Origin: an uncultured Gammaproteobacteria bacterium
GTDB taxonomy: Bacteria > Pseudomonadota > Gammaproteobacteria > DRJJ01
Reading direction: 5' to 3'
NCBI GenBank assembly: GCA_947258795.1
Contig: CAMYJU010000010.1
Coordinates: forward strand, 38,087-102,086
Length of the DNA: 64,000 nucleotides
How positions within the stretch are numbered: position 1 is the first letter of the stretch; every line of letters begins with the position of its first letter. Shown in pieces: positions 22,131 to 26,659 of this stretch. The position numbers and the translations under genes are program-made. A model generated the notes under the pieces. It was given only the letters and a program-made list of their open reading frames with translations. It did no database searches and was not told the DNA's origin.

Positions 22131-24842
22131 ATGAAAACCGACAAATCGAAACCGCTGGTGCTGGTGGACGGCTCTTCCTATTTGTACCGTGCCTTCCATG
22201 CAATGCCTGAACTCATGAATTCCAAAAAACAGCATACTGGCGCTATTTATGGCGTCGTGAATATGCTGCGACGCCTGCTCAAAGACTTCGACACCGACCA
22301 GGTCGCCGTGGTATTCGACGCCAAGGGCAAGACCTTCCGCGACGACCTGTACCCGGAGTACAAGGCCAATCGTCCACCGATGCCGGACGAGCTGCGCAGC
22401 CAGATTAAGCCCTTGCACGAGCTGGTACAGGCGATGGGCTTCCCGCTACTGGAGGTAAGTGGCGTCGAGGCCGACGATGTGATCGGCACCCTGGCCACGC
22501 GCGCCGCGCAGGACGGCCAGGCGGTGGTGATCTCGACCGGCGACAAGGACATGGCACAACTGGTCAATGAGCATGTCACACTGATCAATACCATGACCGA
22601 GGTGGCCATGGACCACGATGGCGTCACGGAAAAATTTGGCGTGCCACCGGATCGCATTATCGACTACCTGGCCCTGATCGGCGACAAGGTCGACAACGTG
22701 CCCGGGGTACCGAAATGCGGCCCGAAAACCGCGGTCAAATGGCTGACTGAATACGGCAGCCTGGATGAGGTTATGGCGCATGCCGACCAGATTGGCGGCA
22801 AGGTCGGTGAGTACCTGCGCGATTCACTCAAGCAGTTACCGCTGTCGCAGGACCTGGTCACCATACGCCGCAGCCTGGATCTCGAGCAGGATTACCACCA
22901 ACTGGTCATGCAGCCACCCGACCAGGACGCGCTGCTAAAGCTGTTTAAACAACTGGAGTTCAAGACCTGGCTGGCCGAGGTGCTCGATGACAGCGGGCAA
23001 TCCACCGGCGGCAGCGCCACAAGCCCTCAGGCCACAGACTACCAGACCATTACCACCAAAACCGAACTGAATAGGTGGATCAAGCAACTGCGCCAGGCCG
23101 AGCTGTTTGCGTTTGATACCGAGACCACCAGCCTGGACTATATGCAGGCCGAGCTGGTCGGGGTGTCGTTCTGCCATGAGCCCGGCAGTGCTGCCTATGT
23201 TCCCTGTGCCCACGACTATCCCGGCGCACCGAAGCAGATCAGCCGCGATGAACTATTAAAGGCGTTGAAACCGTTGCTGGAGGACCCGGACTGCACCAAG
23301 GTCGGCCAGCATATGAAATACGACATGAATGTGCTCGCACGTTATGACATCGACCTGCAGGGTGTCGCCTACGACACCATGCTCGAGTCCTATGTGCTCG
23401 ACAGTACCGCGACCCGCCATGACATGGATTCGCTGTCGCTGAAGTATCTCGGCCACAAGACCATCAAGTACGAGGACGTAGCCGGCAAGGGTGCCAAACA
23501 GCTCACCTTTAACCAGGTCGATCTGGAAACCGCCGGCCCGTATGCCAGCGAGGACGCCGATATCACGCTGCGCCTGCATCAGCAGCTGTGGCCCAGACTG
23601 ACCGACCAGCCGTCACTGAAAGACGTATTCGAAAATATCGAGATCCCGCTGATACCGGTACTATCCCGGATCGAGCGTAATGGCGTGTTGGTGGATGCAA
23701 AAATGCTGGCCAAACAGAGCAGGGAACTGGCCAGCACGATGCTGGTGATCGAGAAGCAGGCCTATGACCTGGCCGGCGGTGAGTTCAACCTGTCGTCACC
23801 GAAACAGATCCAGAAGATCCTGTTCGAGGATCAGGGCCTGCCGGTACTGAAAAAGACCCCGAAGGGCGCGCCATCGACGGCCGAAGAGGTGATGCAGGAA
23901 CTGGCGCTGGACTATGAGCTGCCGGAACTGATCCTGAAATACCGCTCGATGAGTAAACTCAAGTCGACCTATACCGACAAGCTACCCGAACAGATCGACC
24001 CGGACACCGGGCGCGTGCATACCTCTTACCACCAGGCCGTGGCTGCAACCGGACGCCTGTCGTCAACCGATCCAAACCTGCAGAACATCCCGGTACGCAG
24101 CCAGGAAGGCCGGCGTATCCGCCAGGCCTTTATCGCGCCGAGCGGGTCGATCGTAGTGGCCGCCGACTATTCGCAAATCGAGCTGCGCATCATGGCGCAC
24201 CTGTCCGGTGACGAAGGTCTGCTGAAGGCATTTGCCGAAGGCAAGGACGTGCACCGCGCGACCGCAGCCGAGGTGTTCGGCCTGCATGCCAGTGAGGTCA
24301 GCGACGACCAGCGCCGCTCGGCCAAGGCGATCAACTTTGGCCTGATCTATGGCATGTCCGCGTTTGGCCTCGCGCGTCAGCTCGGTATTACGCGCGGCGA
24401 GGCGCAACAGTATGTCGACCTGTATTTTGAACGCTACCCGGGCGTCAAACAGTACATGGAACAGACCCGCGAGCAGGCACGCGAACAGGGTTATGTCGAA
24501 ACCGTGTTCGGGCGGCGCCTGTACCTGCCCGAGATCAATTCGCGTAACGGCCAGCGCCGGCAGTATGCGGAACGCACCGCGATCAATGCGCCGATGCAGG
24601 GCACCGCGGCCGACATCATCAAGCGCGCAATGATCGATGTCGACGACTGGCTACAGGGTGCTGCCGGCAAATACACGCGTATGATCATGCAGGTGCATGA
24701 TGAGCTGGTGTTCGAGGTCGACAAGCAGCAGGTCGACAAGGCCAGCATGGAGATACGCAAGCGCATGCAGCGTGCCGCCGAGCTGGATGTGCCGCTGGTG
24801 GTCGATATCGGCACCGGCAAGAACTGGGAGGCAGCGCATTAG
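22131..24842 (+). CDS. polA: DNA polymerase I
   Basis: A 903-residue repair and Okazaki-fragment polymerase with all three activities. The 5'-3' exonuclease spans about 1-290 (LVDGSSYLYRAFHA, VEADDVIGTLA, GDKVDNVPGVP). The 3'-5' exonuclease, about 315-510, keeps its catalytic residues (FDTETTSLDYM, KYDMNVL). The polymerase domain, about 530-903, has DPNLQNIPVRS, AADYSQIELRIMAHLS, RRSAKAINFGLIYGMS and QVHDELVFEV. The gap that follows, before engB, carries a candidate small RNA, as in enterobacteria and pseudomonads. Confidence 0.98.
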   Translation: MKTDKSKPLVLVDGSSYLYRAFHAMPELMNSKKQHTGAIYGVVNMLRRLLKDFDTDQVAVVFDAKGKTFRDDLYPEYKANRPPMPDELRSQIKPLHELVQAMGFPLLEVSGVEADDVIGTLATRAAQDGQAVVISTGDKDMAQLVNEHVTLINTMTEVAMDHDGVTEKFGVPPDRIIDYLALIGDKVDNVPGVPKCGPKTAVKWLTEYGSLDEVMAHADQIGGKVGEYLRDSLKQLPLSQDLVTIRRSLDLEQDYHQLVMQPPDQDALLKLFKQLEFKTWLAEVLDDSGQSTGGSATSPQATDYQTITTKTELNRWIKQLRQAELFAFDTETTSLDYMQAELVGVSFCHEPGSAAYVPCAHDYPGAPKQISRDELLKALKPLLEDPDCTKVGQHMKYDMNVLARYDIDLQGVAYDTMLESYVLDSTATRHDMDSLSLKYLGHKTIKYEDVAGKGAKQLTFNQVDLETAGPYASEDADITLRLHQQLWPRLTDQPSLKDVFENIEIPLIPVLSRIERNGVLVDAKMLAKQSRELASTMLVIEKQAYDLAGGEFNLSSPKQIQKILFEDQGLPVLKKTPKGAPSTAEEVMQELALDYELPELILKYRSMSKLKSTYTDKLPEQIDPDTGRVHTSYHQAVAATGRLSSTDPNLQNIPVRSQEGRRIRQAFIAPSGSIVVAADYSQIELRIMAHLSGDEGLLKAFAEGKDVHRATAAEVFGLHASEVSDDQRRSAKAINFGLIYGMSAFGLARQLGITRGEAQQYVDLYFERYPGVKQYMEQTREQAREQGYVETVFGRRLYLPEINSRNGQRRQYAERTAINAPMQGTAADIIKRAMIDVDDWLQGAAGKYTRMIMQVHDELVFEVDKQQVDKASMEIRKRMQRAAELDVPLVVDIGTGKNWEAAH

Positions 24843-24990
24843 CATCTTAGCTGCTATCTATATGTGATTGCTTCGTCATACGTCCAGATCCTGTTCGAGG
24901 TACATCATGGATACCCCAACCGCCTTACTGGCGATTCTGGGCAATATATGAGTGAAATAGTCAAATATTGTAAAGAATTGTTACGCCACA

Positions 24991-25018
24991 TTGTTTGCTT
25001 GAAAACAACAGCTACAAT
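24991..25018 (+). promoter_or_regulatory. Possible promoter for the polA-engB intergenic RNA
   Basis: TTGTTT (24991-24996) and TACAAT (25013-25018) are 16 bp apart, giving a predicted transcription start near 25025. The region is AT-rich compared with polA. Other, weaker pairs exist downstream, so the start is uncertain. Confidence 0.4.
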
Positions 25019-25024
25019 TTTCTC

Positions 25025-25212
25025 TTATGCAGACCGGTTATTGATGGTAATGCATTGTGTGAACTATCACCGTCATGACGTGTCTGATGTGTTAGATGCC
25101 TAAACAGGCATTCGATCTGCTCCTCCTCCCTGAGCAGATCCAACATTTAGGCTTCCCCAAAGCCTTAATGCGATTTAACCCTGGCCCACCCCCAATACGG
25201 CCAGGGTTTTTT
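25025..25212 (+). ncRNA. Candidate Spot 42/ErsA-position small RNA with C-rich hairpin loops
   Basis: The intergenic region between polA and engB holds the small RNA Spot 42 in enterobacteria and vibrios, and ErsA in Pseudomonas. Here no convincing ORF is present, but three ordered hairpins are. GATCTGCTC/GAGCAGATC (25114-25122, 25132-25140) encloses the loop CTCCTCCCT. AGGCTT/AAGCCT (25149-25154, 25160-25165) has loop CCCCA. A terminator, CCCTGGCC/GGCCAGGG (25179-25186, 25199-25206), is followed by T6. The CUCCUCCCU loop is complementary to Shine-Dalgarno sequences. The 5' end is a guess from a putative promoter; primary sequence does not obviously match Spot 42. Confidence 0.6.
25179..25212 (+). 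terminator. Intrinsic terminator of the polA-engB RNA
   Basis: CCCTGGCC (25179-25186) and GGCCAGGG (25199-25206), loop of 12, followed directly by six T. It is oriented with polA and convergent on engB, ending 34 bp before the engB stop. Confidence 0.9.
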
Positions 25213-25245
25213 ATTGCCCGCTTATAACCTTATCGTCTGTATAGT

Positions 25246-25872
25246 TTAAGCCTGGTCCCGGTCTTCCAGTTCCAGCCATTTGGCCATCTGTATCTGTCCC
25301 TGCTCGACGCCGGTCTTTTTCAGCGCTGAAAACAGTTGTACCGTGACCTGGTCGAAGCCCTCTTCCTTCAGCAGCTTCCTGACCTGGTGCAGGCTGGTGT
25401 TGGCCGGGCCGCGCTTGAGCTTGTCTGCTTTGGTCAGCAGGATGTGTACCGGCAACCCGACATGCTGACTCCAGTCCAGCATCTGCCAGTCAAATTCGGT
25501 TAACGGATGGCGCACGTCCATGACCAGAATCAGCCCGGCCAGGCATTCTCTGTTTTGTAAATAATCAGACAAGTGTTGCTGCCATTGACGCTTCATTGCC
25601 TCCGGCACCTTGGCGTAGCCATAACCGGGCAGATCGACCAGCCGATGCCGGTCATCGAGCCGGAAAAACACGATTTCACGGGTGCGGCCCGGGGTCTTGC
25701 TGGTACGCGCCAGGCTTTTGCGCCCGGTCAACGTATTGATCGCGCTGGATTTTCCGGCATTGGAACGTCCGGCGAATGCGATTTCCACACCATCAGGTGG
25801 TGGACAATGACGTAAATCCGGACTGGCGAGTATAAACTCGGCCTGCTGGTATATGCTCTGCAAACGGCTCAT
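25246..25872 (-). CDS. engB: Ribosome biogenesis GTPase EngB/YihA
   Basis: A 208-residue essential GTPase of large-subunit assembly. G motifs: [16 protein letters not shown] (P-loop), [11 protein letters not shown] (switch I), [14 protein letters not shown] (G3 with the EngB-specific GYGYA) and LLTKADKL (G4). It lies opposite polA with the RNA terminator between them, and is divergent from the cytochrome c4 gene. This order (polA, engB, cytochrome c4) is conserved in many gammaproteobacteria. Confidence 0.97.
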
Positions 25873-26050
25873 TCGCGAAATACTATCCTAAGTAATTGAT
25901 TTTATATAGACAGAGCGGCTGAAACTTGATTGATTAGCAACCTGCTGGTATAAAGGTGCGCCTTGAAACACCGCAGTTCGTGCGCCCACATGAGCCGCGG
26001 TGACCAAATCCCGATCATCCTATCGCTCTGGGCACAGGAGTTTACCCGAA

Positions 26051-26659
26051 ATGAACAAGTTGTTTGCAATTATCGCAGCCACAGCGGCCTTGAACCTGGT
26101 AACCACCGTCCATGCCGCCGGCAATGCCGACGCCGGTAAGCAGAAGGCCGCTGTATGCGCCGCCTGTCACGGTGCCGATGGCAACAGCCCGACTGACGGT
26201 TTTCCGAAACTGGCCGGACAGCATGAGTCCTATCTGCTGAAACAGCTGCAGGACTACAAGGCTGGTACGCGCAAGGACCCGATCATGGCTGGACAGGTTG
26301 CCGCACTGAGCGATCAGGACATGGCTGATCTGTCCGCCTATTTTGCAGCACAGGCAGTCAGCGTGGGGGCCGCGGACAAGAAACTGATCCCGGCCGGTAA
26401 CGACCTGTACCGTGGCGGCAACCCGGCCAACAAGGTATCCGCCTGCATCGGTTGTCATGGCCCGGCCGGCAAGGGTAATCCGGCGGCGAAGTTCCCGTCA
26501 CTGGGTGGCCAGCACGCTGCCTATATCGCCAAGCAGCTCAAGGCCTTCCGCGATGGCAGCCGCAGCAATGACGCCGGCAAGATGATGCGCAACATCGCCG
26601 CAGGCATGACCGATGCCGAAATCGAGGCGGTTTCTTCGGTTTCATCCGGCCTGAACTAA
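26051..26659 (+). CDS. Dihaem cytochrome c4
   Basis: A 202-residue periplasmic electron carrier. The signal peptide ends about VHA before AGNADAG. Two CxxCH haem sites, CAACHG (about residue 36) and CIGCHG (about 136), sit in duplicated domains, each with a downstream methionine ligand candidate (PIMAGQV; GKMMRNI). Cytochrome c4 passes electrons to terminal oxidases. ATG 26051 is chosen because AGGAG lies some 10 bases upstream and the signal peptide begins there; the frame is open to 26000. A strong terminator follows. Confidence 0.95.
   Translation: MNKLFAIIAATAALNLVTTVHAAGNADAGKQKAAVCAACHGADGNSPTDGFPKLAGQHESYLLKQLQDYKAGTRKDPIMAGQVAALSDQDMADLSAYFAAQAVSVGAADKKLIPAGNDLYRGGNPANKVSACIGCHGPAGKGNPAAKFPSLGGQHAAYIAKQLKAFRDGSRSNDAGKMMRNIAAGMTDAEIEAVSSVSSGLN

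Follow-up and report, generated by a model that had tools for sequence, protein, structure and literature searches.

A predicted sigma-E-type small RNA with C-rich hairpin loops between polA and engB in an uncultured gammaproteobacterium, and its apparent kinship with ErsA, sX13, and anti-hemB

Judged from its sequence, fold, and conservation, the spacer between polA and engB in an uncultured gammaproteobacterium encodes a real small RNA gene. We analyzed a stretch of 64,000 nucleotides (hereafter the window), in which the + strand of this 403-bp spacer holds, at 25094–25212, a compact gene for an RNA with four hairpins. We consider it likely that the product is a trans-acting sRNA of about 119 nt, made from a sigma-E-type promoter, whose C-rich loops mask ribosome-binding sites (RBSs), and that it belongs to a polA-engB family including ErsA, sX13, and anti-hemB. 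The sequence-only reading of this DNA had already placed an sRNA gene at the site, and the folding energy (z −6.9), the conservation, and model matches lying mostly at the same locus bear it out. The features, in window coordinates, are the following:

22131–24842, + strand: polA, upstream neighbor and anchor gene (Pfam DNA_pol_A and exonuclease domains).
25061–25087, + strand: sigma-E/AlgU-type promoter motif, with −35 GAACTA (25061–25066), a 16-nt spacer, and −10 TCTGA (25083–25087); position and spacing conserved.
25094–25212, + strand: small RNA gene, predicted transcript of about 119 nt (covariance model R1, 102 bits, the window being one of its eight training sequences; MFE z −6.9).
25095–25112, + strand: H1, hairpin GATGCCT/AGGCATT (fold; kept in the sister genome; outside the modeled pairs).
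25114–25140, + strand: H2, 9-bp hairpin with loop CUCCUCCCU at 25123–25131 (fold; loop able to pair with the Shine-Dalgarno-type GGGAGGAG; covariation).
25144–25170, + strand: H3, hairpin with loop CCCCA at 25155–25159 (fold; seven of seven modeled pairs covary).
25177–25212, + strand: H4, intrinsic terminator with a C-rich loop, stem-loop 25177–25208 and then a T/U run to 25212 (fold; eight of nine modeled pairs covary).
25246–25872, − strand: engB/yihA, convergent downstream neighbor and anchor gene (Pfam MMR_HSR1; many gammaproteobacteria have EngB relatives at this locus).

At the structural level, none of 200 dinucleotide shuffles folded with an energy as low as that of the RNA. The 9-bp hairpin with loop CTCCTCCCT at 25123–25131, the second hairpin with loop CCCCA, and the intrinsic terminator were all located where the sequence-only reading had put them. 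Its hairpin count was too low: the RNA has three hairpins plus the terminator, and H1 had been missed. A scan for consensus promoters and terminators reported neither a promoter nor a terminator of the RNA element; it missed the terminator because the 12-nt loop exceeds its rule. The region had also been described as lacking a convincing open reading frame. A 43-codon frame does cross the RNA from 25096, and coding is unlikely because the sister genome has a stop at codon 3.

At the level of conservation, a sister genome of the same genus keeps the RNA at 84% DNA identity, and in the alignment of the two genomes most of the spacer is much less well preserved than the RNA and the 35 bases that precede it. 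Spacers beside EngB relatives, gathered regardless of the RNA, repeatedly show the same hairpin order and CCUCCC loops. From eight polA-engB spacer sequences, the window's own included, we built the covariance model R1, whose E-values are rough. RNAalifold on a plain MAFFT alignment recovered the terminator only, so the R1 structure was written by hand. The model matched 175 of 369 genomes of the class and 133 of 272 genera (gammaproteobacteria), and gave a match in about 77 of the first 156 families listed, nearly all of them sampled with one genome. Hairpin conservation among relatives, set beforehand as a test of the sRNA, was thus strongly passed. In the window's own genome there is exactly one match, the spacer RNA, and a phylum-wide search returned only weak matches outside the class (21–28 bits).

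Among the 38 checkable R1 matches, 28 lie less than 1 kb downstream of the 3′ end of engB, nearly all on the opposite strand, and for 29 of the 30 best, polA, engB, or both are no more than 1.5 kb away, locus L129 being the one with neither. This simple locus picture does not hold for about half of the class genomes, nor for 10 of the 38 checked matches. Beyond engB in the window lies a cytochrome c4-like gene (26000–26659), which is also found beside the sRNA in L120, L128, and L137, although polA or engB has lost its adjacency there.

For covariation, we used an alignment of 62 members (A4), fitted to the model structure and for that reason favoring covariation counts. Compensatory, two-sided changes were present in 24 of the 25 model pairs, all modeled H2 pairs covaried, and the covariation score was 0.51; shuffles gave 0.19, and slid structures did not exceed 0.14. 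Since the alignment had been fitted to the model, we added an alignment-free check, in which z was below −3 in 48 of 49 members. Across 49 members, the C-rich motif was unpaired with a mean probability of 0.99, compared with 0.73 in shuffles. In the H2 loop, seven of the eight common columns are 88–100% identical, with CCUCCC nearly invariant, and the commonest form of the H3 loop among members is UUCCCCAA. Because the H2 loop columns hardly change while the stems vary, selection appears to preserve the sequence of the loop and, for the stems, their being there at all.

Several families carry tandem or multiple copies of the sRNA, with up to four close together. There are four matches each in G171:C33 and G278:C8, three each in G022, G169, G276, G128, and G241, and further multi-copy loci at L016, L106, L132, L136, and L141. 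This suggests dosage or divergence among copies.

At the promoter level, GAACTA-N16-TCTGA has the form typical of sigma-E/AlgU-type promoters, and the sister genome keeps it as GAACTT-N16-TCTGA. Searching up to 60 nt upstream of R1 matches for [GA]AAC[TC][TA]-N16-TC, we found it before 47 of the 62 matches tested (29 of the 39 collected by way of engB and 18 of 23 others from the class) versus 0.35% of 11,002 control windows, and spacers of any length other than 16 nt gave at most five matches. The window's genome has genes for Hfq and for an RpoE that scores clearly above its cut-off (313.7 vs. 236 bits). Genome-wide, the strict pattern GAACTW-N16-TCTRA is no commoner than in a reversed control (four sites vs. 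five), so the motif by itself proves nothing, and the case lies in its conservation and position. The scan used showed no sigma-E-type motif upstream of rpoE. We predict transcription of the RNA from its own sigma-E-type promoter; given the conserved motif at 25061–25087, the RNA probably starts near 25092–25095, a few bases past the −10.

Farther upstream, about 65–100 bp before the ECF-type promoter, the block TTGTAAAGAATTGTTACGCCACATTG at 24960–24996 is well kept in the sister genome and could be an activator site. Sequence resembling TTTACAAT occurs in the upstream regions of several relatives.

At the functional level, we propose that envelope stress would act through the RpoE/AlgU-type promoter, and that the sRNA would then be made from the polA-engB spacer. 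Its C-rich loops, above all CUCCUCCCU of H2, would be held single-stranded and would pair with G-rich (GGGAGG) RBSs. Such pairing would block the translation of a set of mRNAs, with a porin-like outer-membrane protein as a likely target. That the C-rich loops are complementary to Shine-Dalgarno sequences had been pointed out in the sequence-only reading, and it is so: the H2 loop complements GGGAGGAG, a Shine-Dalgarno sequence in extended form. This complementarity is expected anyway, because GGGAGGAG is a plain strong Shine-Dalgarno sequence.

Targets were sought in the window's own genome by exact patterns only. The pattern GGGAGGAG-N3-10-ATG occurs at two sites (control, 0), one before a DUF520 (YajQ) gene and the other before the gene of a 470-aa protein (G000:C35 near 3420, locus L167). 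We read the latter as a secreted, porin-like protein of the outer membrane; it has no match in Pfam, NCBIfam, or PDB. Its homologue in the sister genome (L198) is only 48% identical at the protein level, and the leader of about 31 nt, including GGGAGGAG, is almost unchanged, a conservation that exceeds what a Shine-Dalgarno sequence alone needs. The looser GGGAGG-N4-11-ATG has 93 sites vs. 38 in the control, and therefore the loop alone cannot define targets. Most likely, the RNA is a sigma-E-induced repressor of mRNAs with G-rich RBSs, perhaps with the porin-like protein among its targets.

Regarding named RNAs, cut-off tests assign the window's RNA to no Rfam family: a search of the whole window at the gathering threshold found none. 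Sub-threshold scores fall exactly on the RNA element: anti-hemB is the best (43.0 of 49.5 bits, E 9.8e-09), and ar14 (38.6 of 58.8 bits), sX13 (25.9 of 50), and ErsA (23 of 50) also score. Across the 369 genomes, the ErsA model passes its cut-off in one and the sX13 model in three, with several weaker matches at R1 positions. R1 gives 30–31 bits on the ErsA- and sX13-model loci, and the R1 members L020, L120, and L127 exceed the anti-hemB cut-off. The ErsA-model locus L150 has polA upstream and GAACTT-N17-TC before the RNA. Some R1 members have polA nearby and not engB (L125, L127, L137), others engB and not polA (L120, L128), as though an ancestral polA-sRNA-engB block had come apart. On the grounds of the cross-model scores at the same positions, the polA neighborhood, the motif at the ErsA locus, and the broken-up block, ErsA, sX13, anti-hemB, and the window's RNA appear to share descent.

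Other readings of the locus have to be weighed against this one, beginning with the origin of the transcript. The sequence-only reading had proposed a sigma-70-like promoter at about 25000–25020 and a start near 25025. Read directly, the window does hold a reasonable −35/−10 pair (TTGTTT-N16-TACAAT, about 24991–25018), from which a transcript 25025–25212 would follow. However, the aligned bases are altered and partly deleted in the sister genome, and for this lack of conservation we rejected the site as probably not used; it is also absent from the output of the consensus scan, and the conserved ECF-type motif lies nearer the RNA and points to the later start. We regard a sigma-70 origin as very unlikely. 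The RNA might instead derive from polA, by processing of its 3′ UTR or by read-through, or be a mere composite terminator, and not an sRNA with a promoter of its own. 3′ UTR-derived sRNAs are common, and this RNA follows polA in the same orientation and is closed by an intrinsic terminator. Yet it starts about 250 nt past polA and has its own promoter motif, conserved at a fixed spacing; the members L120, L128, and L129 lie away from polA and retain the sigma-E-type motif; and the hairpins before H4, with their near-invariant loops, are unneeded for termination. We give a polA-derived product hardly any credence.

Two further alternatives concern action and ancestry. The RNA could work by another route than RBS blocking, for instance as a sponge that sequesters another RNA or a protein with affinity for C-rich loops: H2, H3, and H4 would offer several similar binding units, and the close copies in some genomes, up to four, would fit titration. 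The characterized sX13, however, uses C-rich loops to act on mRNAs by way of G-rich motifs (PMC3771888), and direct reading of the sequence reveals no GGA loop motifs of the CsrA-sponge type, so we hold this route to be quite improbable and keep RBS masking as the proposed action. As for ancestry, the polA neighborhood and the C-rich loops could reflect convergence on anti-Shine-Dalgarno loops and a strong terminator, with no common descent with ErsA, sX13, and anti-hemB. The Rfam models of the named families do stay below cut-off here, the ErsA and sX13 loci reach only about 30 bits with R1, and sRNAs with C-rich loops are known in distant bacteria too (PMC3771888). Nevertheless, place, orientation, hairpin order, loop motifs, and promoter spacing are common to many families, intermediate loci match several named models at an identical position, and the polA-only and engB-only lineages are expected from the break-up of a block. 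We find convergence unlikely and favor shared descent.

Beyond shared descent, we put forward tentatively, with a confidence falling a little short of even, a wider scenario. The ancestor of much of the Gammaproteobacteria –in the GTDB sense, including Burkholderiales– would have carried, between polA and engB, a single sigma-E-controlled sRNA whose ancestral job was the shutdown of outer-membrane protein synthesis through masking of G-rich RBSs. ErsA, sX13, and anti-hemB would be renamed descendants of this sRNA, and Spot 42 a strongly diverged or replacing occupant of the site.

In 2013, the authors of the sX13 study raised the question of whether similarly acting sRNAs are encoded at the polA locus in other bacteria too (PMC3771888). 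As to this, an sRNA is present in about half of the sampled gammaproteobacterial genomes, and from its sequence it would act in a like manner; the sigma-E-type promoter motif at a fixed spacing is an unexpected shared feature. Moreover, an RNA family mostly missed by Rfam and present in many uncultured lineages gains a concrete candidate role. The polA-engB family appears to join three sRNAs studied separately: ErsA, sX13, and anti-hemB. The literature searched, which included few subscription papers, nowhere mentions sX13 and ErsA together, and their link appears new to it.

Among known systems, Spot 42 (spf) of Enterobacteria is placed and oriented alike: in E. coli K-12 it lies between polA and yihA/engB. 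The sequence-only reading had noted that the window's RNA does not resemble it and had proposed Rfam searches for Spot 42 and ErsA. When run, these gave the sub-threshold ErsA score reported above and, for E values up to 10, no Spot 42 match in the stretch of the window searched; homology to Spot 42 was rejected, as the E. coli spf locus gets no more than 8.3 bits from R1. The alphaproteobacterial alpha-r14 (RF02344) and CcsR1 (RF02791) also have hairpins with CUCCUCCC loops; both stay below cut-off, ar14 having scored in the window and CcsR1 in the relative L132. Anti-hemB, or Burkholderia RNA 7 (RF02837), is represented by B. cenocepacia ncS04, an expressed 105-nt RNA (PMC5688073). It has the same H2 loop, CUCCUCCCUGAGC, but its model stays below cut-off here, and the window's RNA neighbors polA and engB, not hemB.

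The sX13 RNA of Xanthomonadaceae (RF02232) is likewise structured, downstream of polA, and equipped with C-rich loops. It is about 115 nt long, and its C-rich loops repress, independently of Hfq, mRNAs that carry G-rich motifs close to where translation starts (PMC3771888). R1 finds the sX13-model loci at 31 bits, with polA upstream. It differs in that its loops carry 4C/5C motifs and that the window's RNA reaches only 25.9 of the 50 bits required by its model; the exact GAACTT-N16-TC promoter was not found at the sX13-model loci.

Finally, ErsA of Pseudomonas (Pseudomon-1 RNA, RF01719) strictly depends on sigma-22, represses the porin gene oprD, and is under envelope stress control (PMC7565897). 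The window's RNA differs from it in scoring 23 of the 50 bits required and in its CCUCCC H2 loop, which is absent from the ErsA-model locus L150, where engB was not found within 1.5 kb. Both are genes downstream of polA on the same strand (polA end 24842), both have C-rich stretches in loops, and both have an ECF (sigma-22/AlgU) promoter type, predicted for the window's RNA from the conserved motif GAACTA-N16-TCTGA. The suggestion that the RNA is a lineage-specific counterpart thus stands in part: its location and promoter type make it a counterpart of ErsA, but an element shared by about half of the class genomes sampled is not lineage-specific. By its R1 score (102 bits, as a training sequence), its place, and its ECF promoter motif, the window's RNA falls within the polA-engB family of RNAs with C-rich loops.
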